Positions 5,734 through 63,759 of a stretch of 64,000 bases of DNA are shown piece after piece; positions within the stretch are counted from its first letter, which is position 1, and each line of letters begins with the position of its first letter. Below the pieces are notes generated by a model, which did not search any database, was not told where the DNA came from, and worked only from the letters and a program-made list of their open reading frames with translations. The translations under genes and the position numbers were made by a program. Source of the stretch: Actinomycetospora chiangmaiensis DSM 45062 (GTDB lineage Bacteria > Actinomycetota > Actinomycetes > Mycobacteriales > Pseudonocardiaceae); assembly GCF_000379625.1 (NCBI RefSeq), contig NZ_KB903245.1, positions 153,124-217,123 on the forward strand. The letters run 5' to 3'.

Positions 5734-5750
5734 GCCCCGGCTGTCAGCCG

Positions 5751-5787
5751 TGGCGCCCTGCTGACGCTCATCGTCAGCAGGGCGCCA
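5751..5787. terminator. Perfect 16-bp hairpin between convergent genes
   Basis: TGGCGCCCTGCTGACG (5751-5766), a five-base loop, then its exact complement (5772-5787). It sits between the convergent azoR and the membrane gene at 5791. No T-run follows. The inner core CTGACG/CGTCAG is shared with the hairpin at 22989-23029. Confidence 0.75.
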
Positions 5788-5790
5788 CGT

Positions 5791-10454: not shown

Positions 10455-11315
10455 TCAACTGTTCGAATCATCACGAACGCGGTGCCGCCGACCGATCGGC
10501 AGCACGAGCGGAGTGCCGGACACGGGGTCCGTGACGACCTTCGCCTCGAGGCCGAACACGTCGCGCATCGTCTGCTCGGTGAGGACGTCGGCCGGGGCGC
10601 CGGCACCGGCGATCCGGCCGTCCCGCATGGCGACGAGGCGGTCGGCGTAGCGGGCCGCGAGGTTGAGGTCGTGCAGCACCATCACCACCGTGCGGCCCCG
10701 CTCGCGGTGCAGCCGTTCGACGAGGTCGAGGACGTCGACCTGGTGCGCGAGGTCGAGGAACGTCGTCGGCTCGTCGAGCAGCAGCACGTCGGTGCCCTGC
10801 GCCAGCGCCATCGAGATCCACACCCGCTGCCGCTGGCCGCCGGAGAGCGTCTCGAGCGGCCGGTCGGCGAACTCGCTCGTCCCCGTCCAGGCGAGCGCCT
10901 CGGCGACCACGGCCTCGTCGTCGGGACCCCACTGCCGGAACCAGCGCTGGTGGGGGTGCCGGCCGCGCGCCACGAGGTCGGCGACGAGCAGTCCCTCGGG
11001 CGCCACCGGGTCCTGCGGGAGCACCCCGAGCACCGTCGCGACCTGCCGGGACGGCAGCCGGTCGATGCGCTCCCCGTCGAGCAGCACGTGCCCGTGCCGC
11101 GGGGCGAGCAGGCGGGCCATCGCCCGCAGCAGGGTCGACTTGCCGCAGCCGTTGGGCCCGATCACGGCGGTCACGGTGCCCTCGACGACGTCGAGGTCGA
11201 GGCCGCCGTCCGCGCCCACGACGAGCGTGTCGTCGTAGCCGACCTGCAGCCCCTCGGTGCGCAGCCGGGTCCGCCTCGCCTTCCCGACGGCGGGTGCGGT
11301 CAGGTCCGTGGTCAC
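10455..11315 (-). CDS. Iron-siderophore ABC transporter ATP-binding protein
   Basis: GTG 11315 overlaps the permease stop (GTGA) and is preceded by GAGGAGGACC, giving 286 residues. Walker A GPNGCGKST (about 53-61), signature LSGGQRQR (about 156), Walker B DVLLLDEPTTFLD and switch histidine VLHDLNLAARYADR are all present. The C-terminus has the FepC/FhuC-type tail. It powers ferric-siderophore uptake with the two upstream permeases. The frame is open much further upstream, but that stretch is the permease in another frame. Confidence 0.95.
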   Translation of the reverse strand: MTTDLTAPAVGKARRTRLRTEGLQVGYDDTLVVGADGGLDLDVVEGTVTAVIGPNGCGKSTLLRAMARLLAPRHGHVLLDGERIDRLPSRQVATVLGVLPQDPVAPEGLLVADLVARGRHPHQRWFRQWGPDDEAVVAEALAWTGTSEFADRPLETLSGGQRQRVWISMALAQGTDVLLLDEPTTFLDLAHQVDVLDLVERLHRERGRTVVMVLHDLNLAARYADRLVAMRDGRIAGAGAPADVLTEQTMRDVFGLEAKVVTDPVSGTPLVLPIGRRHRVRDDSNS

Positions 11316-14606: not shown

Positions 14607-16115
14607 ATGGAGGAGGGCACGTTCTGCCTGGTCCTGCACTCCCACCTGCCCTGGCTCGCCCGGCACGGGTCGTGGCCGGTCGGTGAGGACTGGCTCTACC
14701 AGGCGTGGGCGCACTCCTATCTGCCCGTGGTCGACGTGCTGCACCGGCTGGCCGAGCAGGGGCACCGCGACGTCCTCACCCTCGGCGTCACGCCCGTCCT
14801 CGCCGCACAGCTCGACCACCCGTACACGCTGCGTGCGATGCACTCCTGGCTCGCCGACTGGCAGCTCCGCGCCCACGCCGCCCACGCGCGGCTCCCGCAG
14901 GTGGCCGCGCGCGAGCACCGGGTCGCTGCCGCGGCACTGGAGACCTTCGAGCACACCTGGCGCCACGGCGGCTCGCCGGTGTTCCGGTCCCTCACCGACG
15001 CGGGTGTGGTCGAGCTCCTCGGCGGCCCGGTCACGCACCCGTTCGGTCCGTTGCTGCCCGGCCGGGTCCGGCGATTCCTGCTCGACGGCGGGCTGCGCGA
15101 CACCGTCCGGCGGCTCGGCTCCCGCCCGCAGGGCATCTGGGCCCCGGAGTGCGGCTACGCGCCGGGGATGGAGCGCGAGTACGCCGCGGCCGGGGTGCAG
15201 CGCTTCCTCGTCGACGGCCCCGCCCTGCGCGGCGACACCGCGGCCGCGCACCCGGTCGACGGCTCGGACGTCGTCGCGTTCGGCCGCGACCTCGACGTCA
15301 CCTACCGCGTCTGGTCGCCGCGGGCCGGCTACCCGGGTGGCCCCGACTACCGCGACTTCCACACCTTCGACCACGGCTCGGGCTTCAAGCCCTACCGCGT
15401 CACCGGGAAGCGGGTCGCCGAGAAGGCACCCTACGAGCCCGACCGGGCCGCGCTCGCCGTCGGGAAGGACGCGCGGGACTTCGTCGACACCGTCGTGGCC
15501 CGGCTGCGGGAACTGCGCGCACGGCGGGGCCGGCCGGGCCTCGTCGTCGCGGCGTACGACACCGAGCTGTTCGGGCACTGGTGGCACGAGGGCCCGGCGT
15601 GGCTGGAGCAGGTGCTGACGCTGCTTCCCGACGCCGGGGTGCGCGTCACCACCCTGCGGGGCGCGGTCGAGGCCGGGCACGTCGAGGAACCGGTGGTGCT
15701 CCCGCCGTCCTCGTGGGGCTCGGGCAAGGACTGGCGGGTGTGGGACGGCGCCGCGGTGGCCGACATGGTCGCCGACAACACCGGTGTCGCGACCCGGCTG
15801 CTCGCCGCGGTCGACGGCGTACCGCGGTCGACCGGACGGGACGCCACGCTCGACGCGCTGGCCGTGCAGGCGGCGCTGGCGCTGTCGAGCGACTGGGCGT
15901 TCATGGTCACGAAGGACTCGGCCGCGCACTACGCCCGACGCCGGGCCGCGGAGCACCGCGACCGGGTCCGCGAGCTGACCGACCTCCTGCCCGCCGGGCG
16001 GCACGAGGAGGCCGCCGCACGGGCGGCGACGTTCGCGGCGCAGGACGACCTGTTCGGTCACCTCGACGCGCGGCACCTGATGCCGGTCCGCTCCCGGGTG
16101 CTGGTCGACGCATGA
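14607..16115 (+). CDS. GH57 1,4-alpha-glucan branching enzyme (Rv3031-like)
   Basis: ATG 14607 follows AGGAGGCCG, giving 502 residues. The start FCLVLHSHLPWLARHG holds the HSHLP motif of GH57. WAPECGYAPGMEREYAAAGV carries the nucleophile glutamate (around residue 195) and AAYDTELFGHWWHEGP the catalytic aspartate (around 325). The C-terminal helical domain (SSDWAFMVTKDSAAHYARRR) is typical of TK1436-type branching enzymes. It introduces alpha-1,6 branches in glucans. Coupled to the GT4 gene by ATGA, it probably builds MGLP-like polymers with it. Confidence 0.92.
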   Translation: MEEGTFCLVLHSHLPWLARHGSWPVGEDWLYQAWAHSYLPVVDVLHRLAEQGHRDVLTLGVTPVLAAQLDHPYTLRAMHSWLADWQLRAHAAHARLPQVAAREHRVAAAALETFEHTWRHGGSPVFRSLTDAGVVELLGGPVTHPFGPLLPGRVRRFLLDGGLRDTVRRLGSRPQGIWAPECGYAPGMEREYAAAGVQRFLVDGPALRGDTAAAHPVDGSDVVAFGRDLDVTYRVWSPRAGYPGGPDYRDFHTFDHGSGFKPYRVTGKRVAEKAPYEPDRAALAVGKDARDFVDTVVARLRELRARRGRPGLVVAAYDTELFGHWWHEGPAWLEQVLTLLPDAGVRVTTLRGAVEAGHVEEPVVLPPSSWGSGKDWRVWDGAAVADMVADNTGVATRLLAAVDGVPRSTGRDATLDALAVQAALALSSDWAFMVTKDSAAHYARRRAAEHRDRVRELTDLLPAGRHEEAAARAATFAAQDDLFGHLDARHLMPVRSRVLVDA

Positions 16116-17431
16116 CCGCCTCCCCGCCGGCCCCGACCAGGATCCTGCTGGTCTCCTGGGAGTACCCGCCCGTGGTGGTCGGTGGGCTCGGGCGCCACGT
16201 CGGTGCGCTCGCGACGCACCTCGCCGCGCAGGGCCACGACGTCGTCGTGCTCACCCGCCAGCCCACGGGCACCGACGCCGCGACCCACCCGACCACCGAC
16301 ACCGTCGTCGACGGCGTGCGCGTGCTCCGGGTCGCCGAGGACCCGCCGCACCTGGAGTTCTTCCGGGACCTCGTGGCGTGGACGCTCGCGATGAACCACG
16401 CCCTGGTCCGCACGGCCACGGCGCTGCTGCGGGAGTGGCGGCCCGAGGTGGTCCACGCCCACGACTGGCTCGTCGCCCACGCCGCGATCACCCTGCGCGA
16501 GCTGGCCGACGTCCCGCTGGTCGCGACGATCCACGCCACCGAGGCCGGTCGGCACGGCGGGTGGCTCTCGCAGCCGCTCAACCAGCAGGTCCACAGCGTG
16601 GAGTGGTGGCTCGCGAACGCGGCCGACGCGGTGGTCACCTGCTCGCACGCGATGCGCACCGAGGTCGCCGACCTGTTCGACGTCGACCCCGTGGGGATCA
16701 CCGTGCTCCACAACGGGATCGACGCGTCGGCGTGGGGCCCTTCCGTGCAAGCAATGCGTCACTCCTTGCACTCAACGCCAGAAACGCCACACCGTCGCGG
16801 CGCCCACACCCTCGTCACGTTCGGACGGCTCGAGTGGGAGAAGGGCATCCAGGACGTGATCGCCGCCCTCCCCGCGATCCGGCGGGCCCACCCCGGGACG
16901 CGGCTGATGATCGCGGGCTCCGGCTCGCACGCCGCGTGGCTGTCCGCGCGCGCCCGCGAGGCCCGGGTCCGGCGCGCGGTCGTCATGCTCGGCCACGTCG
17001 ACGACGTGTCGCTCACGCGGCTGCTCGGGTCGGCGTCGGCCGTCGTCCTACCGTCGCGCTATGAGCCGTTCGGCATCGTGGCGCTCGAGGCGGCGGCCGC
17101 GGGCGCGCCCCTGGTGGCGTCGAGGGCCGGCGGGCTCGGCGAAGTGGTGCTCGACGGTGTCACCGGGCTGTCGTTCGACCCGGGCGACGTCGCGGGCTGC
17201 GCCGCCGCGGTCATCGCGGCGCTCGACGACCCCGAGGCTTCCCGACGACGGGCCGCCACGGCCCGGGAGCGCCTCGACACCGACTTCGCCTGGCCCACCA
17301 TCGCAGCCGACACCGCCGCGCTCTACCGCGCCACCCGTCGTCGGGACGCGGTGCCCCTCGAGCGGCCGAAGATCCCCGGCGGGAACGTCTTCGGCCGGAC
17401 CCAGGGCTCGAGCGGTCCCTCAGCGGGCTGA
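16112..17431 (+). CDS. GT4 glycosyltransferase, Rv3032-like alpha-glucan synthase, with an in-frame palindromic insertion
   Basis: ATG 16112 overlaps the GH57 stop (ATGA); the protein is 439 residues. It starts RILLVSWEYPPVVVGGLGRH (donor-fold loop). HDWLVAH, TIHATEAGRHGG, FGRLEWEKGIQDVIAALP and PSRYEPFGIVALEAAAAGAP (E-x7-E) place it in GT4 with the Rv3032 group, which elongates alpha-1,4-glucans of MGLP. Between HNGIDASAWGPS and TLVTFGRLEW sits a segment of about 18 residues (VQAMRHSLHSTPETPHRRG) encoded by a dispersed DNA repeat (16745-16797). It lies in the loop between the two Rossmann domains, so the enzyme may tolerate it. Confidence 0.9.
   Translation: MTASPPAPTRILLVSWEYPPVVVGGLGRHVGALATHLAAQGHDVVVLTRQPTGTDAATHPTTDTVVDGVRVLRVAEDPPHLEFFRDLVAWTLAMNHALVRTATALLREWRPEVVHAHDWLVAHAAITLRELADVPLVATIHATEAGRHGGWLSQPLNQQVHSVEWWLANAADAVVTCSHAMRTEVADLFDVDPVGITVLHNGIDASAWGPSVQAMRHSLHSTPETPHRRGAHTLVTFGRLEWEKGIQDVIAALPAIRRAHPGTRLMIAGSGSHAAWLSARAREARVRRAVVMLGHVDDVSLTRLLGSASAVVLPSRYEPFGIVALEAAAAGAPLVASRAGGLGEVVLDGVTGLSFDPGDVAGCAAAVIAALDDPEASRRRAATARERLDTDFAWPTIAADTAALYRATRRRDAVPLERPKIPGGNVFGRTQGSSGPSAG
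16745..16797. repeat. Dispersed palindromic element, copy A (inside the GT4 gene)
   Basis: Arms GTGCAAGCA and TCCTTGCAC (one mismatch) enclose ATGCGTCAC. A conserved tail of about 25 bases follows (AACGCCAGAAACGCCACACC). Copies B (41613) and C (57378) share arms, loop and tail. Here the element is read through in frame within the GT4 coding sequence. Confidence 0.85.
17239..17346. repeat. Two copies of the iterated motif TTCCCGACGACGGG inside the GT4 gene
   Basis: Plus-strand copy at 17239-17252 and reverse-complement copy CCCGTCGTCGGGA at 17334-17346. They belong to a motif with at least 13 exact 13-base copies in the window: 17240, 17334, 22276, 26145, 28870, 28900, 31718, 38392, 40125, 43739, 46237, 58815 and 63168. 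Confidence 0.75.
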
Positions 17432-22988: not shown

Positions 22989-23029
22989 CGTGTGCCACCG
23001 CTGACGATCAGCGTCAGCGGTGGCACACG
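22989..23029. terminator. Perfect 18-bp hairpin between two methyltransferase genes
   Basis: Arms 22989-23006 (CGTGTGCCACCGCTGACG) and 23012-23029 are exact complements around a five-base loop. No T-run. The inner CTGACG...CGTCAG core and the five-base loop recall the 5751-5787 hairpin. It should end transcription of the 23048-24007 gene. Confidence 0.75.
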
Positions 23030-41612: not shown

Positions 41613-41667
41613 GTGCAAGCAATGCGTCACTGCTTGCACTCGACGCCAGGAAACCCACACCGTCCGG
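41613..41667. repeat. Dispersed palindromic element, copy B
   Basis: Perfect nine-base arms GTGCAAGCA (41613-41621) and TGCTTGCAC (41631-41639), loop ATGCGTCAC, then the conserved tail (GACGCCAGGAAACCCACACC). It starts ten bases after glgB ends, so it may act as its terminator. Confidence 0.85.
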
Positions 41668-45110: not shown

Positions 45111-45614
45111 ATGCCCGCGTCCGACCCGTTGCCGTTCGACCCCATCGAGCGGGCCGCCGGAATCTGGTCGACCCGGATCGGCGACGCCACCACGATGGCG
45201 GCCACCACGAGCGTCTTCCGCGTCCAGCAGATCCTCCAGCAGGCCGTCGACGCCGCGCTGCGCCCGCACGAGCTGACCTTCGCCCGCTACGAGGCGCTCG
45301 TCCTGCTCACGTTCTCCCGGCACGGCGCGCTGCCGATGAACCTCATGGGCCAGCGGCTGCAACTGCACCCCACGTCGATCACCAACATCGTCGACCGGCT
45401 CGAGGGCGCGGCCCTCGTCCGCCGCACCCCGCACCCCCACGACAAGCGCACGACCCTCGTCGAGCTCACGGACGCGGGCCGCTTGCGCTGCGAGGAGGCG
45501 ACGGCGGCGGTGACGGGCGTCGACTTCGGCCTGGTCGGGCTCGAGGCCGACGAGGCGCAGACGCTGTTCCGGTTGCTCGCCCAGGTCCGGCACGCCGCGG
45601 GCGACTTCGCCTGA
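45111..45614 (+). CDS. MarR-family transcriptional regulator
   Basis: The 167-residue protein has the winged helix region FARYEALVLLTFSRHGALPM then LQLHPTSITNIVDRLEGAAL, VRRTPHPHDKRTTLVELTDA (wing with DKR). The N-terminus adds about 40 residues. It may control its own promoter and the divergent 44776-45081 gene. The ligand is unknown. Confidence 0.92.
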   Translation: MPASDPLPFDPIERAAGIWSTRIGDATTMAATTSVFRVQQILQQAVDAALRPHELTFARYEALVLLTFSRHGALPMNLMGQRLQLHPTSITNIVDRLEGAALVRRTPHPHDKRTTLVELTDAGRLRCEEATAAVTGVDFGLVGLEADEAQTLFRLLAQVRHAAGDFA

Positions 45615-45707
45615 TCGTCCCGCCGGCGGGTCGCCCGCGGTGCTGTCGTGGGCTGCCTCGTAGCCGCCCGGCGACCCTGTCGCGGGCTCCCTCCGCCACA
45701 CCGCCCT

Positions 45708-45734
45708 CCTGTCGTTCGGATTCGCAACGACAGG
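45708..45734. terminator. Hairpin between convergent marR and cydDC
   Basis: CCTGTCGTT (45708-45716) and AACGACAGG (45726-45734) are exact complements with a nine-base loop, followed by GCGGAGG pairing roughly with GCCCTCC. It lies between the two converging stops. Confidence 0.6.
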
Positions 45735-45747
45735 CGGAGGACCGCGG

Positions 45748-48700
45748 TCAGTGCGCAGCGACGAGTGCTCGGGTCCGGAGCCGGCCCTCGGCCAGCTCGA
45801 GGACCGTGTCCATCCGGTCCAGTCCCTCCGGGCGGTGGGTGAGCAGCAGGACGGTGCGGTCGCCGTCGAGCAGGTCGGCCATGAGGGCCCGGGCGGTCCC
45901 GACGTCGAGCCCCTCGGTCGGCTCGTCGAGCACCCACACGCCCGCGCCCGCGAGCACCAGCCGGGCCGCGGCGAGCCGTCGTCGTTCCCCGCCCGAGATG
46001 CTGCCCGGCCCGATCACCGTGTCCAGCCCGTCCCCGAGCGAGGCCACCCAGCCGTCCAGGTGCACGCGACGCAGCGCGGCGTGGAGGCGGTCGTCGGCGG
46101 CGTCGGGCGCAGCGAGCAGCAGGTTGGCGCGCACCGACGCGGTGAAGACGTGGTCATGGTCGCCGAGCAGGCCGACCCGTCGCCGGACGTCGTCACCCGG
46201 CCGCTCCCGGACGTCGACGCCGTCGATCGTCACGGCTCCCGACGACGGGTCGAGGAACTTGAGCAGCACGGCCGCCAGCGTCGACTTCCCCGAGCCCGAC
46301 GCACCCGTCACCGCCACCCGGGCGCCGCGCGGGAGGTCCAGGTCGACCCCACGGAGCGCCTCCTGGTCGCCCCACCCGGCCACGAGGTCGTGCACCGCGA
46401 TCGACGACGGCGCCCGGAACGCACCGAGTGGGAGCAGCGCGTCACCGTTGCGGGACGTGAGTGGCGCCGTTCGCGCACCTGACGACAGCGATGAGCCATT
46501 CGTGTCGCCGGGCTCATCGGGCGTCGGTGGCGCCGTTCGCGCACCTGACGACAGCGATGAGCCATCCATGTCCGGCTCCGTCGCGGGCGGCGCCACGGCC
46601 GCGAGCCCCTCGAGCCGCGCGCGGGCCTGGGCACCGCGGACGACGGCGCGGGCGGCGGCGGGCAGTGCGAGCACGGTCCCGGCGAGCGCGATCGGCAGGA
46701 GGACGACGATCCCGACGAGCTCCGGCGACGCGTCGAGCGACACCGCGGTGAGCGCCGCCCCGACCGTCGTCACGCCGAGCGCGAGGTGGGCGAGCCCGTC
46801 GAGCAGACCCTCGTGCCGCGCGGCCCGGCGCCGCGCCCGGTCGAGCTCCGCGACCCGGGCACGCGGGACGGCGAGCACGTCGTCGCGGTCGCGGACGGCG
46901 AGCTCCTCCCGGGCGGCGAGGGTCTCGACGACGGCGGCCCGCAGGCGGTCGCCCGCCCGGTCGAGCGCCGGGCCGTCGCGGTGCGCCAGCACCCCGGCCA
47001 GCGGCGGCACCACCACGGTCGCGACGCCAAGGCCGAGCACCAGCGCCGGCAGGGTCGCGGGCACCGCGAGCCAGGCGACCAGCACGACGACCGGCAGCAC
47101 GACGACGGCCACCAGCAGCGGCTGCCGGCCCCGCACGAGACCGTCGAGCCGCACGTCGACGTCACTCACCGCCCGCGCCAGCAGGTCGCCCCGCCGTCCC
47201 GCGACCGTCCCGGGCACGCGGTCGACCAGCACGGCGACGAGGGCCCGCCGCCAGCCGGCGACCCGGGCGAGGGCGTCGTCGTGGGTGACGAGTCGCTCCA
47301 GGTAGCGCAGGAGCGGACGCAGCACGGCGGTCGCCCGCACGATCACGACCGCGATCGACAGCGTCAGCACCGGCGGCCGCGCGTCGGCGCGCACGATGAG
47401 CCAGGTCGAGGCGGCGGTCAGCACGAGGCCGGCGAGCACCGAGCCGGCCCCCAGCGCGACCCCACCCGCCGTCGGGAACCGGTGGCGAGAACCGTCACCC
47501 GCAGCGTGAGGGGAACCCTCGAGCGCTCGTGTGGCTTCAGGGTTCCCCTCACGCCGGACGGGGCCCGCCGGGCGCGTCACCGTCACGACCCGGTCGGCCG
47601 CGGCGAGGGCGGCCGGACGGTGCGCGACGAGGAGCACCGCCGCCCCGCGCGACGCGGCGGCACGCAGCAGCTCGAGCACCCGGGCCTCGGTCGCGGCGTC
47701 GAGGTGGGCGGTGGGCTCGTCGAGCAGCACCGTCTGGCGGGGCTCGGCCGCGAGCGCGACGAGCACCCGGGCGAGGGCGAGCCGCTCGCGCTGCCCGGCC
47801 GACACCGAGCCGCCCTCCTCGGCGAGCGGCGCCCCGACGTCGAACGGCAGCCCGAGCGCGTCCAGCACCGAGCGGTCCGACGACCCCAGGGCCTCACCGA
47901 CCGTCCGCGCGTGCGGCAGCGTCGGACGCTGCGGCAGGTACTGCACGGGCCCGCCGACCTCGACGGTGCCCTCGTCCGCCCGGATCGCACCGGCCAGCAC
48001 GCGGAGCAGCGTCGTCTTCCCTGCGCCCGACTCCCCTGCCAGCGCGACGACCTCCCCAGGCGCCACCGTGAGCGTGTCCAGCGCCAGCGCGTCGGCCCGG
48101 CGGTGGGGGTAGCGGACGCGGACCGAGGTGGCGCGAGCGCCCAGGGAGTACGTCTCCGTGCCCGGGCACGGAGACGTACTCACGAGCCCGGCGGGCACCT
48201 GCGCGTCGTGGAACCGCGCCCCGACCTCCCGGATCGGGCGGTAGGCCTCGGGCGCCAGCAGGATCGCGACGAGCGCCGGGGCGAGCCCGAGCGAACCGTC
48301 GACCACCCGCAGCCCGGCCGACACCGCGACCAACCCCACCGACACCGTCGCCACGAGATCCAGCGCCGTCGACGACAGGAACGCCGCCCGCAGCACCGAC
48401 GCGGTCGCCCGCCGGTGCGCCTCGCCGGTCCGCGCGACCTCGTCGACCTGTCGCCGCGCCCGGCCGAACAGACGCAGCGTCGCGAGCCCGGTGACGACGT
48501 CGAGCACGTGCCCGGCGAGCCGCTCCCCCGCGTCCCACTGCGCGGCCGCGCGCTTCTCGGTGGCCCACCCGACGAGCGCCGCGAACACCGGCAGCAGCGG
48601 CAGGGTCGCCAGCACGATCAGCGCCGAGGTGCGGTCGGCGAGGAACAGCCCGACGAGCACCAGCGGCGGGAGCACCGCGGCCAGGACGAGCGCGGGCAGG

Positions 48701-49095
48701 TAGGACGTGAACCAGGCGCGGAGGTCGTCGATGCCTCCGGCGGCCAGTTCCCGACGACGGCCCGCGCCCGGGTCGCGTCGCTCGGCGTCGGCGTCGGCGT
48801 CCCGGGCGTCGAGGAGCCGTTCGCGCTGCGGCTCCACCACCCTCGTCGCCGTGCCGGCCGCGACCCACGGCGAGACCGCGGCGACGCACGCCCGGACCAC
48901 GACGGCACCGACCAGCCACGCGATCTCGGCCCTGGGGTGCGCCCCTCCCACCAGCGACGCCACGAGCAGCCCGGCCGCGACCAGCGCGACCGCGTCGGCC
49001 ACGGCGCCGACCACCCCCAGCACGACCTGCCCCGCCACCCCGGGCAGGGCCGGGCGCGCCAGGCGCAGCAGCAGCGGGTCGACCGGGCCGCTCAC
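45748..49095 (-). CDS. cydDC: CydD-CydC fusion ABC transporter for cytochrome bd assembly, with repeat insertions in every linker
   Basis: GTG 49095 overlaps the cydB stop (GTGA); 1115 residues form two complete ABC half transporters. First half: about six helices, then Walker A GESGAGKTTLLRVL, SVSAGQRERLALARVL, VLLDEPTAHLDAAT. Second half: six helices, GASGSGKSTLAAVLL, ISGGERRRLAAARL, VWVLDEPTEGLDVG. CydDC exports reduced thiols/binds heme and is needed for bd oxidase maturation; fusion is common in actinobacteria. Three DNA repeats fall exactly at the interdomain linkers: 48146-48181 (TM1/NBD1), 47506-47552 (NBD1/TM2) and 46461-46565 (TM2/NBD2), all in frame. Confidence 0.95.
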   Translation of the reverse strand: MSGPVDPLLLRLARPALPGVAGQVVLGVVGAVADAVALVAAGLLVASLVGGAHPRAEIAWLVGAVVVRACVAAVSPWVAAGTATRVVEPQRERLLDARDADADAERRDPGAGRRRELAAGGIDDLRAWFTSYLPALVLAAVLPPLVLVGLFLADRTSALIVLATLPLLPVFAALVGWATEKRAAAQWDAGERLAGHVLDVVTGLATLRLFGRARRQVDEVARTGEAHRRATASVLRAAFLSSTALDLVATVSVGLVAVSAGLRVVDGSLGLAPALVAILLAPEAYRPIREVGARFHDAQVPAGLVSTSPCPGTETYSLGARATSVRVRYPHRRADALALDTLTVAPGEVVALAGESGAGKTTLLRVLAGAIRADEGTVEVGGPVQYLPQRPTLPHARTVGEALGSSDRSVLDALGLPFDVGAPLAEEGGSVSAGQRERLALARVLVALAAEPRQTVLLDEPTAHLDAATEARVLELLRAAASRGAAVLLVAHRPAALAAADRVVTVTRPAGPVRREGNPEATRALEGSPHAAGDGSRHRFPTAGGVALGAGSVLAGLVLTAASTWLIVRADARPPVLTLSIAVVIVRATAVLRPLLRYLERLVTHDDALARVAGWRRALVAVLVDRVPGTVAGRRGDLLARAVSDVDVRLDGLVRGRQPLLVAVVVLPVVVLVAWLAVPATLPALVLGLGVATVVVPPLAGVLAHRDGPALDRAGDRLRAAVVETLAAREELAVRDRDDVLAVPRARVAELDRARRRAARHEGLLDGLAHLALGVTTVGAALTAVSLDASPELVGIVVLLPIALAGTVLALPAAARAVVRGAQARARLEGLAAVAPPATEPDMDGSSLSSGARTAPPTPDEPGDTNGSSLSSGARTAPLTSRNGDALLPLGAFRAPSSIAVHDLVAGWGDQEALRGVDLDLPRGARVAVTGASGSGKSTLAAVLLKFLDPSSGAVTIDGVDVRERPGDDVRRRVGLLGDHDHVFTASVRANLLLAAPDAADDRLHAALRRVHLDGWVASLGDGLDTVIGPGSISGGERRRLAAARLVLAGAGVWVLDEPTEGLDVGTARALMADLLDGDRTVLLLTHRPEGLDRMDTVLELAEGRLRTRALVAAH
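46461..46565. repeat. 39-bp direct repeats inside cydDC (TM2/NBD2 linker)
   Basis: Identical 39-base copies at 46461-46499 and 46527-46565 begin GTGGCGCCGTTCGCGCACCT and end AGCGATGAGCCAT. On the minus strand they encode GSSLSSGARTAP twice. GATGAGCC (46490) and GGCTCATC (46511) form a hairpin at the end of copy 1. The reading frame is intact. Confidence 0.9.
47506..47552. repeat. Inverted repeat inside cydDC (NBD1/TM2 junction)
   Basis: Perfect 14-base arms GTGAGGGGAACCCT (47506-47519) and AGGGTTCCCCTCAC (47539-47552). The loop begins with the palindrome CGAGCGCTCG. The in-frame product is REGNPEATRALEGSPHA. Confidence 0.9.
48146..48181. repeat. Perfect 36-bp palindrome inside cydDC (TM1/NBD1 linker)
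   Basis: Each 18-base half (GAGTACGTCTCCGTGCCC and its exact complement) abuts the other without a loop. It is read through in frame as VSTSPCPGTETYS. A perfect 36-base palindrome in coding sequence is very unlikely by chance. Confidence 0.92.
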
Positions 49096-50081
49096 GCCGC
49101 GATCCGCTCGCTCGCGACCCGCCGCCGGAACACCCAGTACGAGAACGCCTGGTAGGCCAGCACACCGGGCAGGATCAGCACCGCTCCGACCGTGATCACG
49201 GTCAGCGCGTACGGGGACGCGGCCGCGCCCGAGATGGTCAGCGACGACGCCGGGTCGAGCGTCGAGGGCAGCACCACCGGCACGTGCGCGGTGAACGCCG
49301 CGACGACCGCCCCCACCACGCCGAGGGTCGCGGCGGCGAACGCCGCCCCCTCGTACCGCCACCCGGCGGCGACGGCCGTGGCCACCGCGAGCAGGGCGAT
49401 CACCCCGGCGAACAGCGCCGCGAACCCCCCGACGGCCACGCCCACCCCGGCCGCGCCGACGGCCGCGGCCACGGCGGCAGCCACCGCCACCCGCTGCGCC
49501 CGCACACGGACCGGCCCGGTGGTCCGCAGCCCGAGGAACGTCGTGCCCTGCACGAGGGCCGCGAGGACGCCGAGCACGGCTCCGGCGAGCGCCGGCCAGG
49601 ACAGCAGCGGGGCGAGCGAGCGCTCCAGGCCGGTCCCGACGACGGCTCCGGCCGGGTCGAGCGCGAGGCCCGTCGTCGCGACCGCGACGACGGCACCGAA
49701 CAGACCCGCCGTCAGGAAGGAGGAGACCGCGAGGGTGACCTCGCAGCGCCGCCGCCAGGCCGGGGTGTCGACCTTGCCGCGGAACTCGATCGCGACGCCT
49801 CGCGCGGCCAGCGCGAGGAGTACCAGCACCATCGGCAGGTAGAGCCCGGAGAGCAGCGCGGCGTACCAGGCGGGGAAGGCCGCGAAGGTCACGCCGATCG
49901 CCGCGACCAGCCACACCTCGTTGCCGTCCCAGACGGGCCCGACGGTGCGGATCGCCGCGCCGCGCTCGTGGTCGTCGCGCCCGAGGACCGGGGCGAGCAT
50001 GCCGACGCCGAAGTCGAACCCCTCGAGGGCGAGGAACAGCACCCAGCAGAGGACCGCGAGGGCGAACCAGAGGACGTCCAT
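49092..50081 (-). CDS. cydB: Cytochrome bd ubiquinol oxidase subunit II
   Basis: ATG 50081 overlaps the cydA stop by one base; 329 residues with about eight to nine membrane helices. MDVLWFALAVLCWVLFLALE, GFDFGVGMLAPVLGRDDHER and VGPVWDGNEVWLVAAIGVTF are the conserved N-terminal regions. LPMVLVLLALAARGVAIEFR is typical. With CydA it forms the high-affinity oxygen-reducing terminal oxidase in the membrane. Confidence 0.97.
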   Translation of the reverse strand: MDVLWFALAVLCWVLFLALEGFDFGVGMLAPVLGRDDHERGAAIRTVGPVWDGNEVWLVAAIGVTFAAFPAWYAALLSGLYLPMVLVLLALAARGVAIEFRGKVDTPAWRRRCEVTLAVSSFLTAGLFGAVVAVATTGLALDPAGAVVGTGLERSLAPLLSWPALAGAVLGVLAALVQGTTFLGLRTTGPVRVRAQRVAVAAAVAAAVGAAGVGVAVGGFAALFAGVIALLAVATAVAAGWRYEGAAFAAATLGVVGAVVAAFTAHVPVVLPSTLDPASSLTISGAAASPYALTVITVGAVLILPGVLAYQAFSYWVFRRRVASERIAA

Positions 50082-51493
50082 CAGTAGCTCATCTCCAGCA
50101 CGGGCTCGGGCTCCTGCTCCGTTCCCGACGTCGGGTGCAGCGGCGCCGGCTCCCGGCGCGAGACGTGCAGCACGAGGCGGACCCAGACGACGGCGAGGAC
50201 GCCGTAGACCAGGGCGAACCCGGCGAGGGAGGCGGTCAGCTCGATCGGGGTGAGGGTGGGCGAGACGCCGTCGTGGGTGCGGAACAGGCCGAACACGAGC
50301 CAGGGTTGGCGGGCGGTCTCCGTGAACAGCCAGCCGAACGTCGCCGCGGCCGTCGGCAGGACCGGCAGCACCCAGAGGAAGCGCAGCAGCCAGCGGTCGG
50401 CGAACCAGGTGGGCGTGAACTCGCGGCCGCGGCGGGTGCGCCAGAGGACGTAGGCGGCGATGCCCGTGGCGAGGACCCCGAGCCCGATCATGAGACGGAA
50501 GGTCCAGTAGGCGACCGGGATCCACGGCGTGTAGTCCCCCGGGCCGAACTGCAGCTCGTACCGGCGCTGCAGGTCGTCGATCCCCTGCACGGTGGCGGTC
50601 GGGTCGCCGGTGGCCAGGAAGCTGAGCAGCCACGGCACGTCGAGCGACCACGGCTGCGCCATGCCGGGCAGCTGGATCGCGACGAGGCTGAACGGGGCGT
50701 GCCCGGTGGTCTCGTACAGCGCCTCGGCGGCGGCCATCTTCATGGGCTGGACCGCGGTCATCACCTTGCCCAGCGCGTCGCCGGTGAGGCTGACCGCGGT
50801 ACCGCCGACGAGGGTGGTCCAGGCGCCGACGCGGGCGAGGACGCGCCACGTGGGCGCCTGCTCGGCGTCGTCCCGGCGCCGCCACATCCCGATGGCCATC
50901 AGCAGCGCGCCGCCGGACATGAACGCGCCCGCGATGGTGTGCGGGAACGAGGCGACGACGACGGGGTTGGTCAGCAGGGCGCCGAAGCTCCCGAGCACGG
51001 CACGCCCGGTCGCCGGGTCGGTCGCCGCGCCGACCGGGTGCTGCATGAAGGCGTTGGCCGCGAGGATCACGTAGGCCGAGACCAGGGTGCCGATCGCGAC
51101 GACCCAGATCGTGGCGAGGTGCAGCCCGGGGCGCAGCCGGTCGCGACCGAACCACCAGAGGCCCAGGAACGTGGCCTCGAGGAAGAACGCGAGCATGCCC
51201 TCGATCGCGAGCGTGGGGCCGAAGACGTCGCCGTAGTACTGCGCGAACGCCGACCAGGAGAGCCCGAACTGGAACTCCTGGACGAGGCCGGTCACCACGC
51301 CCACGGCGAAGGTGGCCGTCAGCAGTTTCCCGGCGAGCAGGGTGGCCCGCGAGTACCGGTCGTCCCGAGTGCGCCACCACACGGTCTGCAGGCCCGCCGT
51401 CAGCGCCGAGAGCGAGATCGACAGCGGGACGAACAGATAGTGGTAGACGGTGACGACGGCGAATTGCAGGCGTGAGAGCTCCAGTGCGGTCAC
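50081..51493 (-). CDS. cydA: Cytochrome bd ubiquinol oxidase subunit I
   Basis: GTG 51493 follows AGGAGGT at six bases; 470 residues. LSRLQFAVVTVYHYLFVPLS has the early histidine heme ligand, and FQFGLSWSAFAQYYGDVFGP and IEGMLAFFLEATFLGLWWFG carry the conserved glutamates. GWLFTETARQPWLVFGL matches the GWxxxExGRQPW signature. The Q-loop is short, as usual for actinobacteria. First gene of cydA-cydB-cydDC; the start region carries a BlaI-like dyad. Confidence 0.97.
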   Translation of the reverse strand: MTALELSRLQFAVVTVYHYLFVPLSISLSALTAGLQTVWWRTRDDRYSRATLLAGKLLTATFAVGVVTGLVQEFQFGLSWSAFAQYYGDVFGPTLAIEGMLAFFLEATFLGLWWFGRDRLRPGLHLATIWVVAIGTLVSAYVILAANAFMQHPVGAATDPATGRAVLGSFGALLTNPVVVASFPHTIAGAFMSGGALLMAIGMWRRRDDAEQAPTWRVLARVGAWTTLVGGTAVSLTGDALGKVMTAVQPMKMAAAEALYETTGHAPFSLVAIQLPGMAQPWSLDVPWLLSFLATGDPTATVQGIDDLQRRYELQFGPGDYTPWIPVAYWTFRLMIGLGVLATGIAAYVLWRTRRGREFTPTWFADRWLLRFLWVLPVLPTAAATFGWLFTETARQPWLVFGLFRTHDGVSPTLTPIELTASLAGFALVYGVLAVVWVRLVLHVSRREPAPLHPTSGTEQEPEPVLEMSY

Positions 51494-57377: not shown

Positions 57378-57431
57378 GTGCAAGCAATGCGTCACTGCTT
57401 GCACTGAACGCCAGAAAAGCCACATCGTCGG
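57378..57431. repeat. Dispersed palindromic element, copy C
   Basis: Perfect arms GTGCAAGCA (57378-57386) and TGCTTGCAC (57396-57404), loop ATGCGTCAC, tail GAACGCCAGAAAAGCCACAT. Placed 12 bases after the coiled-coil gene stop. The preceding CACCTCCGG is also shared with copy B. Confidence 0.85.
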
Positions 57432-59834: not shown

Positions 59835-60499
59835 GCTTCGACCTGGCCACGACGCCGGTCCGGGCGCTCAACGCCGAGCTGCACGACCCCGCCGTCAAGA
59901 GCTACGAGGTCCTCCACCCCGACGGCGCGCACGCGGTGGCCGCCGGGATCGACACCGGCATCGCCGTCGAGATCCGCGGGCACGTCGGCTACTACTGCGC
60001 GGGCATGAACGACGGCGGGTCGGTCACCGTCCACGGCAACGCCGCCACCGGCCTGGCGGAGAACATGATGTCCGGGACCGTCCGGATCACCGGGGACGCC
60101 TCGCAGTCCGCGGGGGCGACCGCGCACGGCGGGCTGCTCGTGATCGAGGGTTCCGCGTCCATGCGCTGCGGGATCTCGATGAAGGGCGTGGACATCGTCG
60201 TCGGCGGGTCCGTCGGCCCGATGAGCGCGTTCATGGCCCAGGCGGGCCGGATGGTCGTGTGCGGCGACGCGGGCGACGGGCTCGGCGACTCCATCTACGA
60301 GGCCCGGCTCTACGTCCGCGGCCGCGTCGGCGAGCTGGGCGCGGACTGCGTCGAGAAGGAGCTGCGCGACGAGCACCGGGCCGAGCTGGCCGAGCTCCTC
60401 GCGGCAGCGGGCCTCGACCACGACCCGGCCGAGTTCCGCCGCTACGGCTCCGCCCGGCGGCTCTACCACTTCCAGTCCGAGCAGGCGGAGGCGTACTGA
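59822..60499 (+). CDS. mgsB: GXGXG-domain glutamate synthase-like subunit (MgsB/GlxC-like)
   Basis: ATG 59822 (METVSFDLATTPVRALNAEL) gives 225 residues. GYYCAGMNDGGSVTVHGNAA, GLAENMMSGTVRITGDASQS and GGLLVIEGSASMRCGISMKG form the right-handed beta-helix of the glutamate synthase C-terminal domain. It is structural and couples the amidotransferase and FMN domains. Overlaps by 13 bases upstream and one base (TGATG) downstream. Confidence 0.88.
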   Translation: METVSFDLATTPVRALNAELHDPAVKSYEVLHPDGAHAVAAGIDTGIAVEIRGHVGYYCAGMNDGGSVTVHGNAATGLAENMMSGTVRITGDASQSAGATAHGGLLVIEGSASMRCGISMKGVDIVVGGSVGPMSAFMAQAGRMVVCGDAGDGLGDSIYEARLYVRGRVGELGADCVEKELRDEHRAELAELLAAAGLDHDPAEFRRYGSARRLYHFQSEQAEAY

Positions 60500-61845
60500 T
60501 GCCCAGGGAATCGGCCACCTTCGGCCGCGACGTCATCGCCGAGATCCAGCGCGCCGCCGAGACCGGGGTGTACGACATCCGCGGCTGGGGCGCCAAGCGC
60601 GCCGTCCCGCACTTCGACGACCTGCTCTTCCTCGGCGCCTCGATGTCGCGCTACCCGTTGGAGGGCTACCGCGAGCGCTGCGACACCGACGTCGTCCTCG
60701 GCGGCCGCAACGCCCGCTACCCGCTGCACCTGCAGACCCCGGTGACCATCGCCGGGATGAGCTTCGGCGCCCTGTCCGCGCAGGCCAAGGAGGCGCTCGG
60801 GCGCGGCGCCTCGGAGGTGGGGACGTCCACGACGACGGGCGACGGCGGCATGACCCCCGAGGAGCGCGGCGAGTCCAAGCACCTCGTCTACCAGTACCTG
60901 CCGTCGCGCTACGGCATGAACCCCACCGATCTGCGCAAGGCCGACGCCATCGAGGTCGTCCTCGGGCAGGGCGCGAAGCCGGGCGGCGGCGGGATGCTGC
61001 TGGGCCAGAAGATCTCCGACCGGGTCGCGGGGATGCGCACGCTGCCCGCCGGGATCGACCAGCGCAGCGCCTGCCGGCACCCCGACTGGACGGGACCGGA
61101 CGACCTCGCCATCAAGATCCTCGAACTGCGCGAGATCACGGACTGGGAGAAGCCGGTCTACGTCAAGGTCGGCGCCACCCGCACCTACTACGACGTCAAG
61201 CTCGCGGTCGCGGCCGGCGCGGACGTCGTCGTGGTGGACGGGATGCAGGGCGGCACCGCCGCGACACAGGACGTGTTCATCGAGCACGTCGGCATCCCCA
61301 CCCTCGCCGCGATTCCCCAGGCCGCGCTGGCGCTGCAGGAGCTCGGGCTGCACCGCCACGGCGTGCAGCTGATCGTCTCCGGCGGCATCCGCTCGGGCGC
61401 CGACGTCGCGAAGGCGATGGCCCTCGGCGCGGACGCGGTGGCGATCGGCACCGCCGCCCTCATCGCGCTGGGCGACAACTCCCCGCGCTACGCCGCGGAG
61501 TACGAGGCGCTGGGCTCCGCCGCCGGCTCCTACGACGACTTCCAGGACGGTCGCGACCCGGCCGGCATCACCACGCAGGACCCGGAGCTCGCGGCCCGGC
61601 TCGACCCGGTCGAGGGCGGGCGCCGCCTGGCCAACTACCTGCGTGTCCTCACGATGGAGGCGCAGACCATCGCCCGCGCCTGCGGCAAGGCGCACCTGCG
61701 GCACCTGGAGCCCGATGACCTCGTCGCCCTCACCGTGGAAGCGGCCGCGATGGCGCGGGTACCGCTGGCCGGGACGAACTGGATCCCGGGGACGGGAGAC
61801 GCAGCGCAGCGGAGCTCGACCCGGGGAGGAGCGGAGCATGCCTGA
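60499..61845 (+). CDS. mgsC: FMN-binding glutamate synthase-like subunit (MgsC/GlxD-like)
   Basis: The 448-residue protein has PVTIAGMSFGALSAQAKEAL, TSTTTGDGGMTPEERGESKH, GQGAKPGGGGMLLGQKISDR and VDGMQGGTAATQDVFIEHVG, VSGGIRSGADVAKAMALGAD, all from the FMN/synthase barrel. It would carry out the amine-transfer step. The last residues, GDAAQRSSTRGGAEHA, are encoded by a copy of the GGAGACG-type repeat and are absent from the usual family end. Overlaps the FAD oxidase start by eight bases. Confidence 0.9.
   Translation: MPRESATFGRDVIAEIQRAAETGVYDIRGWGAKRAVPHFDDLLFLGASMSRYPLEGYRERCDTDVVLGGRNARYPLHLQTPVTIAGMSFGALSAQAKEALGRGASEVGTSTTTGDGGMTPEERGESKHLVYQYLPSRYGMNPTDLRKADAIEVVLGQGAKPGGGGMLLGQKISDRVAGMRTLPAGIDQRSACRHPDWTGPDDLAIKILELREITDWEKPVYVKVGATRTYYDVKLAVAAGADVVVVDGMQGGTAATQDVFIEHVGIPTLAAIPQAALALQELGLHRHGVQLIVSGGIRSGADVAKAMALGADAVAIGTAALIALGDNSPRYAAEYEALGSAAGSYDDFQDGRDPAGITTQDPELAARLDPVEGGRRLANYLRVLTMEAQTIARACGKAHLRHLEPDDLVALTVEAAAMARVPLAGTNWIPGTGDAAQRSSTRGGAEHA
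61794..61820. repeat. GGAGACG-type 27-bp element, mgsC tail copy
   Basis: GGGAGACGCAGCGCAGCGGA then GCTCGAC at the junction of mgsC and the FAD oxidase gene. It encodes the mgsC tail (GDAAQRSST) and stands before the GGGGAGGAGCGG ribosome binding site of the next gene. Confidence 0.8.
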
Positions 61846-63022
61846 GGTCATCGTCGTCGGGGGCGGCCTGGAGGGCTGCGCCACCGCGTACGCGCTCACC
61901 CGGCGCGGCATCACCGACGTCACGGTCGTCGAGCGCGCGACCGTCGGGTCCGGGGGCACCGGGAAGTCGTCCGGCGTCGTCCGGTGCCACTACGGCGTCT
62001 CCTCCCTCGCCGCGATGGCGACCCGGTCGCTCGACACCTTCGAGCACGCCGAGGACGTCCTCGGGGTCGACGTCGGGTTCTTCGGCATCGGCTACGTGGT
62101 CGGGGTCGGTCCGGAGAACGTGGCCGCGCTGCACGCCTCGATGGCCGACCAGCGGGCGGTCGGGGTGCGCACCGAGGACATCGACCACACCGAGGTCGCG
62201 AAGCTCTGGCCGGTCGCCGACCTGGAGCCGTTCGGCGCGTTCGCGTGGGAGGAGCGCGGCGGCTACGGCGACGCCTACCGCACCGCCCAGGGCTTCGCGG
62301 GCGCTGCGCGCCGGGCCGGGGCGCACCTGCGCCAGGGCACCCTGGTGACCGGGCTGGTCGTCGGGAATGGGCGGGTGACCGGCGTGCGGTGCTCGGACGG
62401 CGAGGTGCTCGAGGCCGACGCGGTCGTCCTCGCGGCCGGCCCGTGGTCGGTGCCGCTGCTCGCCGAGCAGGGGGTGGAGCTGCCGCTGACGGTGCACCGG
62501 GAGTCGCTCGTGCTCGTCGACCCCGGACAGGACCTCGGCGAGGTGCCCGTGTTCTCCGACCTCGTGTCGCTGCAGTACGTGCGGTACGAGCGGGTCTCCG
62601 CGGAACTGCTCGTCGGCAACTCCGACCTCGGGACGCTCGAGCCCGCCGACCCCGACCGGTACTCCAACCAGGCGACGCCGGAGGCCCTCGACCGCGCCGT
62701 CGAGAAGGTCGGGACCCGGTTCCCCGGGCTCGTCGACGCCTCGATCGCCTCCTCCTACGCCGGCTGCTACGACGTGACGCCCGACTTCAACCCGGTCATC
62801 TCCCGCGTCGACGGCCTGGACGGGCTCGTCGTCGCCGCCGGGTTCTCCGGGCACGGGTTCAAGATCTCGCCGGAGGTCGGGCGGCTGGTGGCCGACCTCG
62901 TCGTCGACGGTGAGAGCTCCGTTCCGGAGACGCCCGCGTCGGACTTCCGGCTGTCCCGCTTCGCCGACGGCGACCTGCTCACGAGCCCTCACCCCTACGT
63001 CGGCGCGGGGCAGATGCGGTGA
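61838..63022 (+). CDS. FAD-dependent amine oxidase (DAO family)
   Basis: ATG 61838 follows GGAGGAGCGG; 394 residues. VIVVGGGLEGCATAYALTRR binds the ADP of FAD, GTGKSSGVVRCHYGVSSLAA is the second FAD loop, and FSGHGFKISPEVGRLVADLV the C-terminal flavin region, as in sarcosine/glycine oxidases and MgdA-type subunits. It may oxidise the N-alkylated amino acid made by the synthase genes upstream. The substrate is not proven. Confidence 0.9.
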   Translation: MPEVIVVGGGLEGCATAYALTRRGITDVTVVERATVGSGGTGKSSGVVRCHYGVSSLAAMATRSLDTFEHAEDVLGVDVGFFGIGYVVGVGPENVAALHASMADQRAVGVRTEDIDHTEVAKLWPVADLEPFGAFAWEERGGYGDAYRTAQGFAGAARRAGAHLRQGTLVTGLVVGNGRVTGVRCSDGEVLEADAVVLAAGPWSVPLLAEQGVELPLTVHRESLVLVDPGQDLGEVPVFSDLVSLQYVRYERVSAELLVGNSDLGTLEPADPDRYSNQATPEALDRAVEKVGTRFPGLVDASIASSYAGCYDVTPDFNPVISRVDGLDGLVVAAGFSGHGFKISPEVGRLVADLVVDGESSVPETPASDFRLSRFADGDLLTSPHPYVGAGQMR

Positions 63023-63759
63023 CGCCGGAGCAGGGAGACGCAGCGCAGCGGAGCTCGACCATCGAGGCGGGAGACGCAGCGCAGCGGAGCTCGACCATCG
63101 AGGCGGGAGACGCAGCGCAGCGGAGCTCGACCATCGGGACGGGCCCGGCCGCTCGCGAGGTCGACGTTCCCGACGACGGGGAGGGTCGGCTCGAGCGCGC
63201 CATCGGCGCCCAGGTGCGGCGCATCCGGGCCGACGCCGGGTGGACGCTCGCCGAGATGGCGGCGCGGACCGGGCTGTCGAAGGCGATGCTGTCCAAGATC
63301 GAGAACGCGCAGATCTCGTGCTCGTTGACGACGCTGGCCCGGCTCGCCTCGGCCCTCGACGTGCCGGTCACCGCGCTGTTCCGGGACGCGGACGGGCCGC
63401 GGGAGGCCGTGTTCACCCCGGCGGGCGGCGGCGCGCGCATCGTCGCCCGCGGCACCCGGGTGGGTCACGACTACACGCTGCTCGGCGCCCTGCGCGGCCC
63501 CCACAAGCGCATGGAGGCCCACCTCGTCACGCTCACCGAGCGCAGCGAGGAGTTCCCGCTGTTCCAGCACCCCGGCACGGAGCTGCTGTTCGTGCTGGAG
63601 GGCGCGATGGTCTACGGCCACGGCGACGCCTCGTACACGATGCGCCCGGGCGACGCGCTGCAGCTCGACGGCGAGGGTGCGCACGGGCCGCGCGAGCTGG
63701 TGGAGCTGCCGATCCGGTTCCTGTCGGTGGTCGCCTATGGGGACGCCGCCACCGGCTGA
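63019..63759 (+). CDS. XRE-cupin regulator with a repeat-encoded N-terminus
   Basis: GTG 63019 overlaps the oxidase stop (GTGA); 246 residues. Residues about 3-45 are three GDAAQRSSTIEA-like copies encoded by the tandem 36-bp DNA repeat. The HTH follows (IGAQVRRIRADAGWTLAEMA, KAMLSKIENAQISCSLTTLA), then a cupin (TELLFVLEGAMVYGHGDASY, MRPGDALQLDGEGAHGP). Such proteins sense small molecules such as amines or amino acids. Last gene of the operon and probable regulator of it. Confidence 0.9.
   Translation: MTPEQGDAAQRSSTIEAGDAAQRSSTIEAGDAAQRSSTIGTGPAAREVDVPDDGEGRLERAIGAQVRRIRADAGWTLAEMAARTGLSKAMLSKIENAQISCSLTTLARLASALDVPVTALFRDADGPREAVFTPAGGGARIVARGTRVGHDYTLLGALRGPHKRMEAHLVTLTERSEEFPLFQHPGTELLFVLEGAMVYGHGDASYTMRPGDALQLDGEGAHGPRELVELPIRFLSVVAYGDAATG
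63033..63140 (+). repeat. Three tandem 36-bp copies of the GGAGACG-type element
   Basis: Copies start at 63033, 63069 and 63105 with a 36-base period (GGGAGACGCAGCGCAGCGGA, then GCTCGACC and ATCGAGGC). They keep the frame of the XRE-cupin gene and start 15 bases after its start codon. Confidence 0.92.

Follow-up and report, generated by a model that had tools for sequence, protein, structure and literature searches.

This analysis concerns a cydDC gene of Actinomycetospora chiangmaiensis DSM 45062, which lies in a 64,000-nucleotide stretch of contig NZ_KB903245.1 (hereafter the window) and whose three interdomain linkers each carry a different repeat element. These elements probably belong to several repeat families that have multiplied within one clade of the genus and reside mostly between genes, with in-frame copies surviving where they are harmless and CydDC serving as a repeated acceptor. 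For the copies found inside genes, the most likely reading is that they are tolerated passengers situated between protein domains.

The cydDC gene (45748..49095, minus strand) is an open frame of 1115 residues that encodes a fused CydD-CydC ATP-binding cassette (ABC) transporter, as judged from its translation, from the TIGR02857 and TIGR02868 models and from solved relatives (8ipq and 7zd5, by alignment to Protein Data Bank (PDB) sequences). The product matches the CydD equivalog model TIGR02857 over residues 23-506 (E 3.9e-161) and the CydC equivalog model TIGR02868 (E 8.1e-143), the latter match ending at residue 1089. When aligned with solved CydD and CydC and with 23 relatives, the elements fall in the three linkers that join the transmembrane regions (TM) and the nucleotide-binding domains (NBD), namely TM1/NBD1 (linker 1), the NBD1/TM2 fusion linker (linker 2) and TM2/NBD2 (linker 3). 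This between-domain placement draws on Pfam, NCBIfam, PDB sequence alignments and a family alignment.

Linker 1 contains the 36-bp palindrome of family B, GAGTACGTCTCCGTGCCCGGGCACGGAGACGTACTC (48146..48181), which is perfect (18/18 pairs) and encodes residues 305-317 with the peptide VSTSPCPGTETYS. Linker 2 contains an element of family A on the minus strand (47504..47554, with a 47-bp core at 47506-47552) that encodes residues 514-531, RREGNPEATRALEGSPHA. The first-pass annotation had described a 14-bp inverted repeat spanning this core; the repeat is present, but its perfect arms are 16 bp long, separated by a 19-nt loop, and it extends over the full 47504-47554 interval. Linker 3 contains two direct repeats of family C, also on the minus strand, the first copy in the gene direction at 46527..46565 (residues 844-857) and the second at 46461..46499 (residues 866-879). 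They are identical at 39/39 positions, as had been reported, and their similarity reaches 54 nt at 91%. Palindrome, inverted repeat and direct repeats were all located where the first-pass annotation had placed them. The predicted RNA folds of the palindrome (-32.7 kcal/mol, z -6.0 vs shuffles) and of the inverted repeat (-43.2 kcal/mol, z -8.3) are very stable. In the region 45500-49400, no promoters were predicted, and Rfam 15 gave nothing at the gathering threshold, with one sub-threshold match (21.6 bits vs a gathering value of 69).

The background frequency of such hairpins was estimated from 464 kb of the 5.86-Mb genome (G000), consisting of the window and twenty 20-kb pieces, of which 92% was called as coding. 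Hairpins with perfect arms of 16 bp or more and a loop of at most 30 nt occur three times within genes, two of these being the cydDC elements, and 16 times outside genes, whereas codon-shuffled genes yielded none across five shuffles. At arms of at least 11 bp, the in-gene count is close to the shuffle level (34 vs 28.2). The controls rule out chance in the case of the palindrome and of the inverted repeat, but not for arms of 11-13 bp.

Genome-wide searches place families A and B in many dispersed copies. Family A, with the consensus GTGAGGGGAACCCTCGTGCCACAAGAGCGCTCGRATCCTCCCCTCAC (drawn by eye), occurs at 47 distinct places with at most 3 mismatches (48 rows, one place being matched on both strands), and its exact 14-bp arms are found 40 times. 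Family B comprises 54 palindromes with at most 3 mismatches over 24 fixed positions. Reversed patterns, used as controls, gave 0 matches for either family. Elements of the two families are 36-51 bp long and have the stem bases GTGAGGGG (family A) and GTGAGTAC (family B). Uniqueness to cydDC, which the first-pass annotation had set against its own proposal, is ruled out for both families by these copies; it is not for family C, which has no close copy elsewhere. The stem of family B, in which 91.6% of cells are paired, is conserved by double changes at 8 of 18 pairs (41 cells), a value matched in 0 of 500 shuffles, although shuffles of this kind can be exceeded by sequences that are related to one another.

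The usual location of both families is between genes, according to context counts that rest on a codon-usage gene caller written for the analysis, a caveat that applies to all of them. Fifty of the 54 family B copies could be placed: 29 between convergent genes, 17 between tandem genes, 3 between divergent genes and a single one in a gene, cydDC itself. The 47 family A copies of G000 divide into 20 tandem, 13 convergent and 2 divergent locations and 12 within genes, and the 57 copies examined in a second genome of the genus, G004, divide into 21, 19 and 3 with 14 in genes; in G008, where 10 of 44 rows were examined, 2 are in genes. Among gaps of at least 40 bp, the convergent share is 28/214. 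Against this background, family B is strongly enriched in convergent gaps (29/49, P=5e-14), and family A is enriched as well (13/35 in G000, P=3e-4; 19/43 in G004). In addition, 13 of the 49 intergenic family B copies either include part of a nearby stop codon or lie directly against one. The convergent excess, together with the maintained pairing of the family B stem, fits a hairpin acting at transcript ends, and the intergenic copies may well serve in this capacity.

All 12 in-gene family A copies of G000, which reside in 12 different genes, leave the reading frame open. Eight of them read REGNPRATRALESSPH and variants, two are of the VRGGSERSFGARVPLT type and two of the SRGEDPSAHVVRGFPSR type. 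A common frame and orientation is used by 8 of 12 copies in G000 (P=0.011, taking four equal frames) and by 11 of 14 in G004. The two genomes together provide 16 host genes. Nine in-gene sites are common to both by alignment, and a tenth by eye; a host listed in one genome only cannot be taken as an empty site in the other. In G004, the metal ATPases L336:3-1784 and L322:869-2824 hold a second, partial family A peptide beside the full one, suggesting local duplication.

With respect to protein architecture, the copy is situated beyond any domain envelope in 10 of 14 family A hosts, against 4.68 expected (P=0.0014), a test that is approximate because it draws on 14 genes chosen for carrying a copy. 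The linker bias suspected in the first-pass annotation, as opposed to equal abundance in folded domains, is supported by this result. The bias persists when the weakly annotated L182, L201 and L336 are dropped (7/11 vs 2.65 expected, P=0.004) and when cydDC is dropped along with them (6/10 vs 2.55, P=0.017). The boundary of the first carrier-protein domain of L201 was estimated and checked by motif position, and the test omits L023 and L341, hosts without Pfam domains in which the copy is near the C-terminus. Several copies occupy the joints of fused enzymes: CydD/CydC, NuoE/NuoF and, by Pfam, biotin carboxylase/biotinyl domain. The peptides themselves appear unconstrained. In nine ortholog pairs between G000 and G004, the element codons contain 24 non-synonymous and 10 synonymous differences in 143 codons, compared with 598 and 1118 in the 5290 codons of the rest of the same genes (Fisher P=3.4e-5). 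This non-synonymous excess indicates that the frame is kept while the peptide is not conserved as protein.

The comparison across the genus covered 18 genomes searched for family A, in 16 of which cydDC was read. Family A is present in eight genomes and was not found in the other ten, with 48 rows in G000, 59 in G004, 44 in G008, 37 in G013, 9 in G017, 5 in G009 and 1 each in G005 and G010. By DNA identity of cydDC, the nearest relatives are G004, G013, G008, G017, G009 and G005 (89 to 75%), G010 giving a partial match at 75%, and the high numbers are mostly confined to these nearest relatives.

At the same linkers, the species differ in the repeats they hold. In linker 2, family A is present in G000, G004 and G008, and G013 and G017 have another repeat, SSEGxLRS, in doubled form. 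No repeat was recognised in linker 2 of G009 and G005, and the nine outer species have ANGxFAAS or ARDALAASDA types or a variant, as sorted by eye. Linker 3 contains family C twice in G000; in its place, G004 has two copies of another repeat, SRVPPLTSDVSRSPRS, and G013 has one, with no repeat in the other 13 genomes read (G009 being judged from the family alignment). Relatives of the G004/G013 repeat are found between genes in G000 (96% over 54-55 bp), and other linker repeats likewise have intergenic relatives in G017 (92% over 52 bp) and G015 (93% over 43 bp). In small samples of G015 and G001 (140 and 160 kb, respectively), a single ANGxFAAS-type relative was seen between genes, at L375. 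Short patterns for several families gave few matches, for some of them about as many as the reversed control, and these were not counted as evidence.

Linker 3 varies widely in length, being 88 residues in G000, 111 in G004, 67 in G013, 56 in G008, 53 in G017 and 42 in G005, and ranging over 41-44 among the nine outer species. Linker 2 of the near clade has 54-56 residues where it contains a repeat (54 in G000) and 49-52 in the two species without a recognised one, and linker 1 has 27-31 in all seven near species, with the same length in G000, G004 and G013. As linker 3 alone clearly exceeds its counterparts in near relatives (88 residues vs 56 and 53), the term in-frame insertion, which the first-pass annotation had applied to all three linkers, is apt for linker 3 and too simple for linkers 1 and 2. 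Rather, repeats add sequence in linker 3, whereas those of linkers 1 and 2 constitute the linker more than they extend it. Of 18 positions across linker 1, 17 can pair in G000, 13 or 14 in G008, G009, G017 and G005, 10 in G013 and 9 in G004. For comparison, random in-gene 40-mers (n=8728) have a mean of 5.6, with 0.06% reaching 13, 3.3% reaching 10 and 8% reaching 9. Five of the seven nearest species thus show a clear old hairpin at linker 1; in G013 and G004, it has decayed or is missing. Within linker 2 repeats, perfect arms of at least 8 bp are present in 11 of 16 genomes, while those of G008, G013 and G017 are at most 7 bp. With related species holding other repeats at the same places, the pattern looks like turnover at old linkers.

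Based on these observations, a sequence of events can be proposed. Short dispersed repeats (~36-55 bp), mostly hairpin-forming and of several families, would have multiplied in one clade of the genus. Their usual site is between genes, with the convergent excess, and the paired arms of family B fit a transcript-end hairpin. Family A copies that enter genes, presumably arriving through duplication from elsewhere, would survive where added residues do little harm, that is, mostly between domains, in tails and in loops, and the in-gene copies mostly use the one of the element's open frames that reads REGNPRATRALESSPH. CydDC, with its three long linkers, would accept repeats repeatedly, such that species come to differ in the repeats at the same linkers. 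The in-gene copies would then be tolerated rather than useful.

Several findings weigh against this account. Whereas families A and B are dispersed, family C at no more than 3 mismatches is confined to cydDC in the genome-wide search; its relatives are diverged, the best being a tandem pair behind a stop codon (70% over 113 bp, E 6.9e-8), and the family C region folds no better than shuffles (z -1.5, with 12/200 as good). The ARDALAASDA type was not seen to be dispersed in the G015 and G001 samples. At three stem positions of family B, pairing fails in 14, 17 and 22 of the 49 sequences, and the largest class of family A locations is tandem, not convergent. The claim that elements fall between domains and nowhere inside them holds for cydDC, but in four of the 14 family A hosts, namely P-type ATPase, CobT, UreF and AnmK, the copy falls within a Pfam envelope. 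The CobT and AnmK copies coincide with a gap in the solved homologue, while the P-type ATPase copy replaces a stretch with no net gain in length; in a benzoylformate-decarboxylase-like enzyme, the copy aligns to a variable stretch and the length gain is unclear. No clean pair of empty and filled sites was obtained, linker 3 alone being partly comparable in this respect, and even there the change is not a simple insertion, as linker 3 of G013 is 11 residues longer than that of G008 yet the G013 repeat encodes ~17. Neither target-site duplication nor transposase nor movement has been demonstrated, transposases not having been searched for.

A different explanation, unlikely but deserving serious consideration, is that the elements are the host's bidirectional transcript-end hairpins and that the in-gene copies are captured gene ends, the hairpin between two neighbours turning into the linker upon gene fusion or stop loss. 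The convergent excess and compensatory pairing of family B would be expected in this case, as would the stop codons at 13 of its 49 intergenic copies and the family A copies at the fused-enzyme joints. Other families are also found at joints, such as the family H hairpin that sits between both domains of an S-methyltransferase/MTHFR protein and a family J copy in a protein with two tetrapyrrole methylase matches. However, family B is in a gene in only 1 of 50 cases, and family A copies are also present inside single domains (CobT, AnmK, UreF and the P-type ATPase). Within cydDC, linkers 1 and 3 reside inside the CydD and CydC halves, away from the fusion. Finally, the combination of GC-rich hairpin and U tract that typifies an intrinsic terminator is absent at the cydDC copies, with 0 terminator-like sites bearing a T run in 45500-49400, the sole region scanned.

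For the linker 1 palindrome in particular, it is conceivable, if quite improbable, that template switching within a quasi-palindrome made it perfect in situ, as opposed to its being copied from elsewhere. Among the 50 copies examined, only the one in cydDC has a G-C pair at stem columns 11/34 (GTC/GAC arms), and imperfect palindromes occupy the corresponding site in relatives. The remaining sequence, however, matches the consensus of the dispersed family B, and such a match could not be produced by in-place perfection alone.

It also seems doubtful that in-gene hairpins are kept for a useful mRNA structure, for example one that slows translation where two domains meet and thereby lets each domain fold before the next. 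The between-domain position and the unconstrained peptide would agree with such a role, and so would the very stable predicted hairpins for two of the three elements, the 13-17 of 18 paired positions of linker 1 in five of the seven nearest species, a level that 0.06% of random 40-mers attain at its lower bound of 13, and the perfect arms of linker 2 repeats in 11 of 16 genomes. On the other hand, most copies of families A and B are found outside genes, the hosts are unrelated and 4 of 14 copies are inside domains. Moreover, in-gene arms pair slightly worse than intergenic ones, with 0.75 vs 0.40 mismatches in the nine outer pairs in G000 and 0.57 vs 0.40 in G004. Linker 1 of G004 (9/18) is at chance and that of G013 (10/18) weak, linker 2 arms are short in G008, G013 and G017, and the linker 3 repeats fold no better than shuffles. 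A related proposal, in which the hairpin and not its sequence is kept at joints, with interdomain linkers of this genus tending to persist as mRNA spacer or pause hairpins and unrelated families as interchangeable suppliers, is comparably improbable. Chance or G+C-rich composition (74% in the window) has almost no probability as an explanation, since hairpins with arms of at least 11 bp occur in genes at about the chance level but those with arms of at least 16 bp stand at 3 against 0 in five codon shuffles, and reversed patterns have no matches.

Tolerated passengers of dispersed families, the favoured interpretation, can be compared with known systems. The first-pass annotation had drawn a parallel with the Rickettsia palindromic elements (RPEs), which were reportedly described by Ogata et al. 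in 2000 and 2002, and the parallel is apt in that dispersed copies are found here in frame in unrelated genes. RPEs are described as elements of ~150 bp in intracellular Rickettsia that reside in frame inside unrelated metabolic genes (PMC10969869, PMC3733652). The likeness extends to the presence of several dispersed palindromic families, located in frame in unrelated genes as well as between genes, and to a recognisable peptide, and 12 of 47 family A copies, in 12 genes (16 with G004), stay open in this manner. Unlike the ~150-bp RPEs as described there, families A and B measure 36-51 bp and belong to an actinobacterium, with the G+C content of the window given above, and they are likened to RPEs by function rather than filed among them. 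A further difference is that here the same linkers hold different repeats across species of the genus.

As portrayed in PMC3733652, GTAG/CGTC repetitive extragenic palindromes (REPs) are small stem-loops found mainly between convergent and unidirectional genes, whose ends may supply a stop codon and some of which are inside open reading frames (ORFs); two Xanthomonas species have different REPs at about the same recB site. The paucity of divergent locations is a feature shared, on this description, by family B (29 convergent, 17 tandem and 3 divergent of 49) and family A (13, 20 and 2 of 35), while neither tag is present at the stem base of either family. The text of that paper does not contain the words actinobacteria, Streptomyces or Pseudonocardia, and the present analysis differs from the REP work described in it by measuring the between-domain bias and comparing repeats over 16 species. 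Bacterial miniature inverted-repeat transposable elements (MITEs), intragenic RU/ERIC and Coxiella elements are reportedly short repeats that become in-frame protein parts (PMC10969869, PMC2759123, PMC5896051); compared with MITE-type elements as outlined there, neither a target duplication nor a cognate transposase is in evidence here, as already mentioned. Mitochondria of Nematomorpha reportedly have perfect inverted repeats of up to 284 bp in coding sequence (PMC6649704), and these resemble the cydDC elements in being perfect and coding but are mitochondrial.

The first-pass annotation knew of no named actinobacterial case, and the literature search likewise listed no actinobacterial in-frame palindrome family, most subscription papers being outside its reach. 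Overall, these repeats constitute a real dispersed in-frame hairpin-repeat phenomenon, Rickettsia-like in its working and with no kinship implied, of which cydDC is the clearest acceptor. In-frame palindromic repeats are known from Rickettsia and other REP-rich bacteria, and whether they are a peculiarity of these or a general way of making linkers is a long-standing question; they occur here in an actinobacterial clade and in core enzymes (CydDC, NuoEF, CobT and, by Pfam, biotin carboxylase). Because sister species differ at the same linkers, the seeding of linkers, tolerated passengers and a hairpin role can be told apart by test. For annotators and structure modellers, the repeats carry a warning that REGNPRATRALESSPH-type segments are repeats and not conserved motifs.

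Additional repeats were noted in the window and the sampled pieces. Family J (GTGCAAGCAATGCGTCACTGCTTGCAC...) has in-frame copies in two genes. One, at 16745..16795 (plus strand), forms part of the linker between the domains of a GT4-type glycosyltransferase encoded by gene 16112-17431, where it corresponds arithmetically to about residues 211-228, between Pfam domains at 23-206 and 229-386. The other, at L359 10484, lies behind the first domain (5-210) of the protein with two tetrapyrrole methylase matches, the second of which begins at ~268 by eye. Intergenic copies are located at 41613..41663 and 57378..57428 (both plus strand), the 3′ limits of all three window copies being approximate. 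At three places, head-on intergenic pairs are found with starts ~97 bp apart (L362 5382 and 5479; L363 14236 and 14333; L075 1453 and 1551).

Family I (GACGCAGCGCAGCGGAGCTCGACC, peptide GDAAQRSST) occurs in frame at called gene starts and ends, partly as 36-bp tandem copies, as well as between genes, in the window, L185, L354, L365 and others. The window contains three 36-bp tandem copies encoding GDAAQRSST in frame at 63033..63138 (plus strand), near the start of gene 63019-63759 as called, although the true start codon could be further down, and one copy at 61793..61821 (plus strand), near the C-terminal end of gene 60499-61845. In L185:166-2460, a predicted sugar kinase/nucleotidyltransferase is apparently fused to a short-chain dehydrogenase via family I repeats, a fusion that may be an assembly artefact given the run of N (an assembly gap) inside it.

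Two hairpins with 18-bp arms are present in the window, one between convergent genes at 5749..5789 and one in an intergenic position at 22989..23029. The latter contains CGTGTGCCACCGCTGACG, the motif of the TM2/NBD2 repeat of cydDC in G004 and G013. The longest hairpin in the 464-kb sample, at L365 6786-6867, has 30-bp arms and appears by eye to be an extended intergenic family B element. With regard to its neighbours, cydDC is downstream of the ORFs 49092-50081 and 50081-51493, which from their translations we take to be cydB and cydA, respectively.

A k-mer census proved too noisy except for spotting families I and J and a short site, TCCCGACGNCGGG. This site is strongly over-represented in G000, with 93 occurrences in the 464 kb (74 in genes), and in G004, with 48 in 162 kb (38 in genes), compared with 9 and 5, respectively, for two scrambled patterns taken together. 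The samples of G015 (140 kb) and G001 (160 kb) contain none, suggesting a clade-limited signal. Examples in the window include 11278-11297, 46237-46252 and a copy at 47461..47480, at the end of the NBD1/TM2 linker of cydDC. The site resembles HIP1 of cyanobacteria in this regard.

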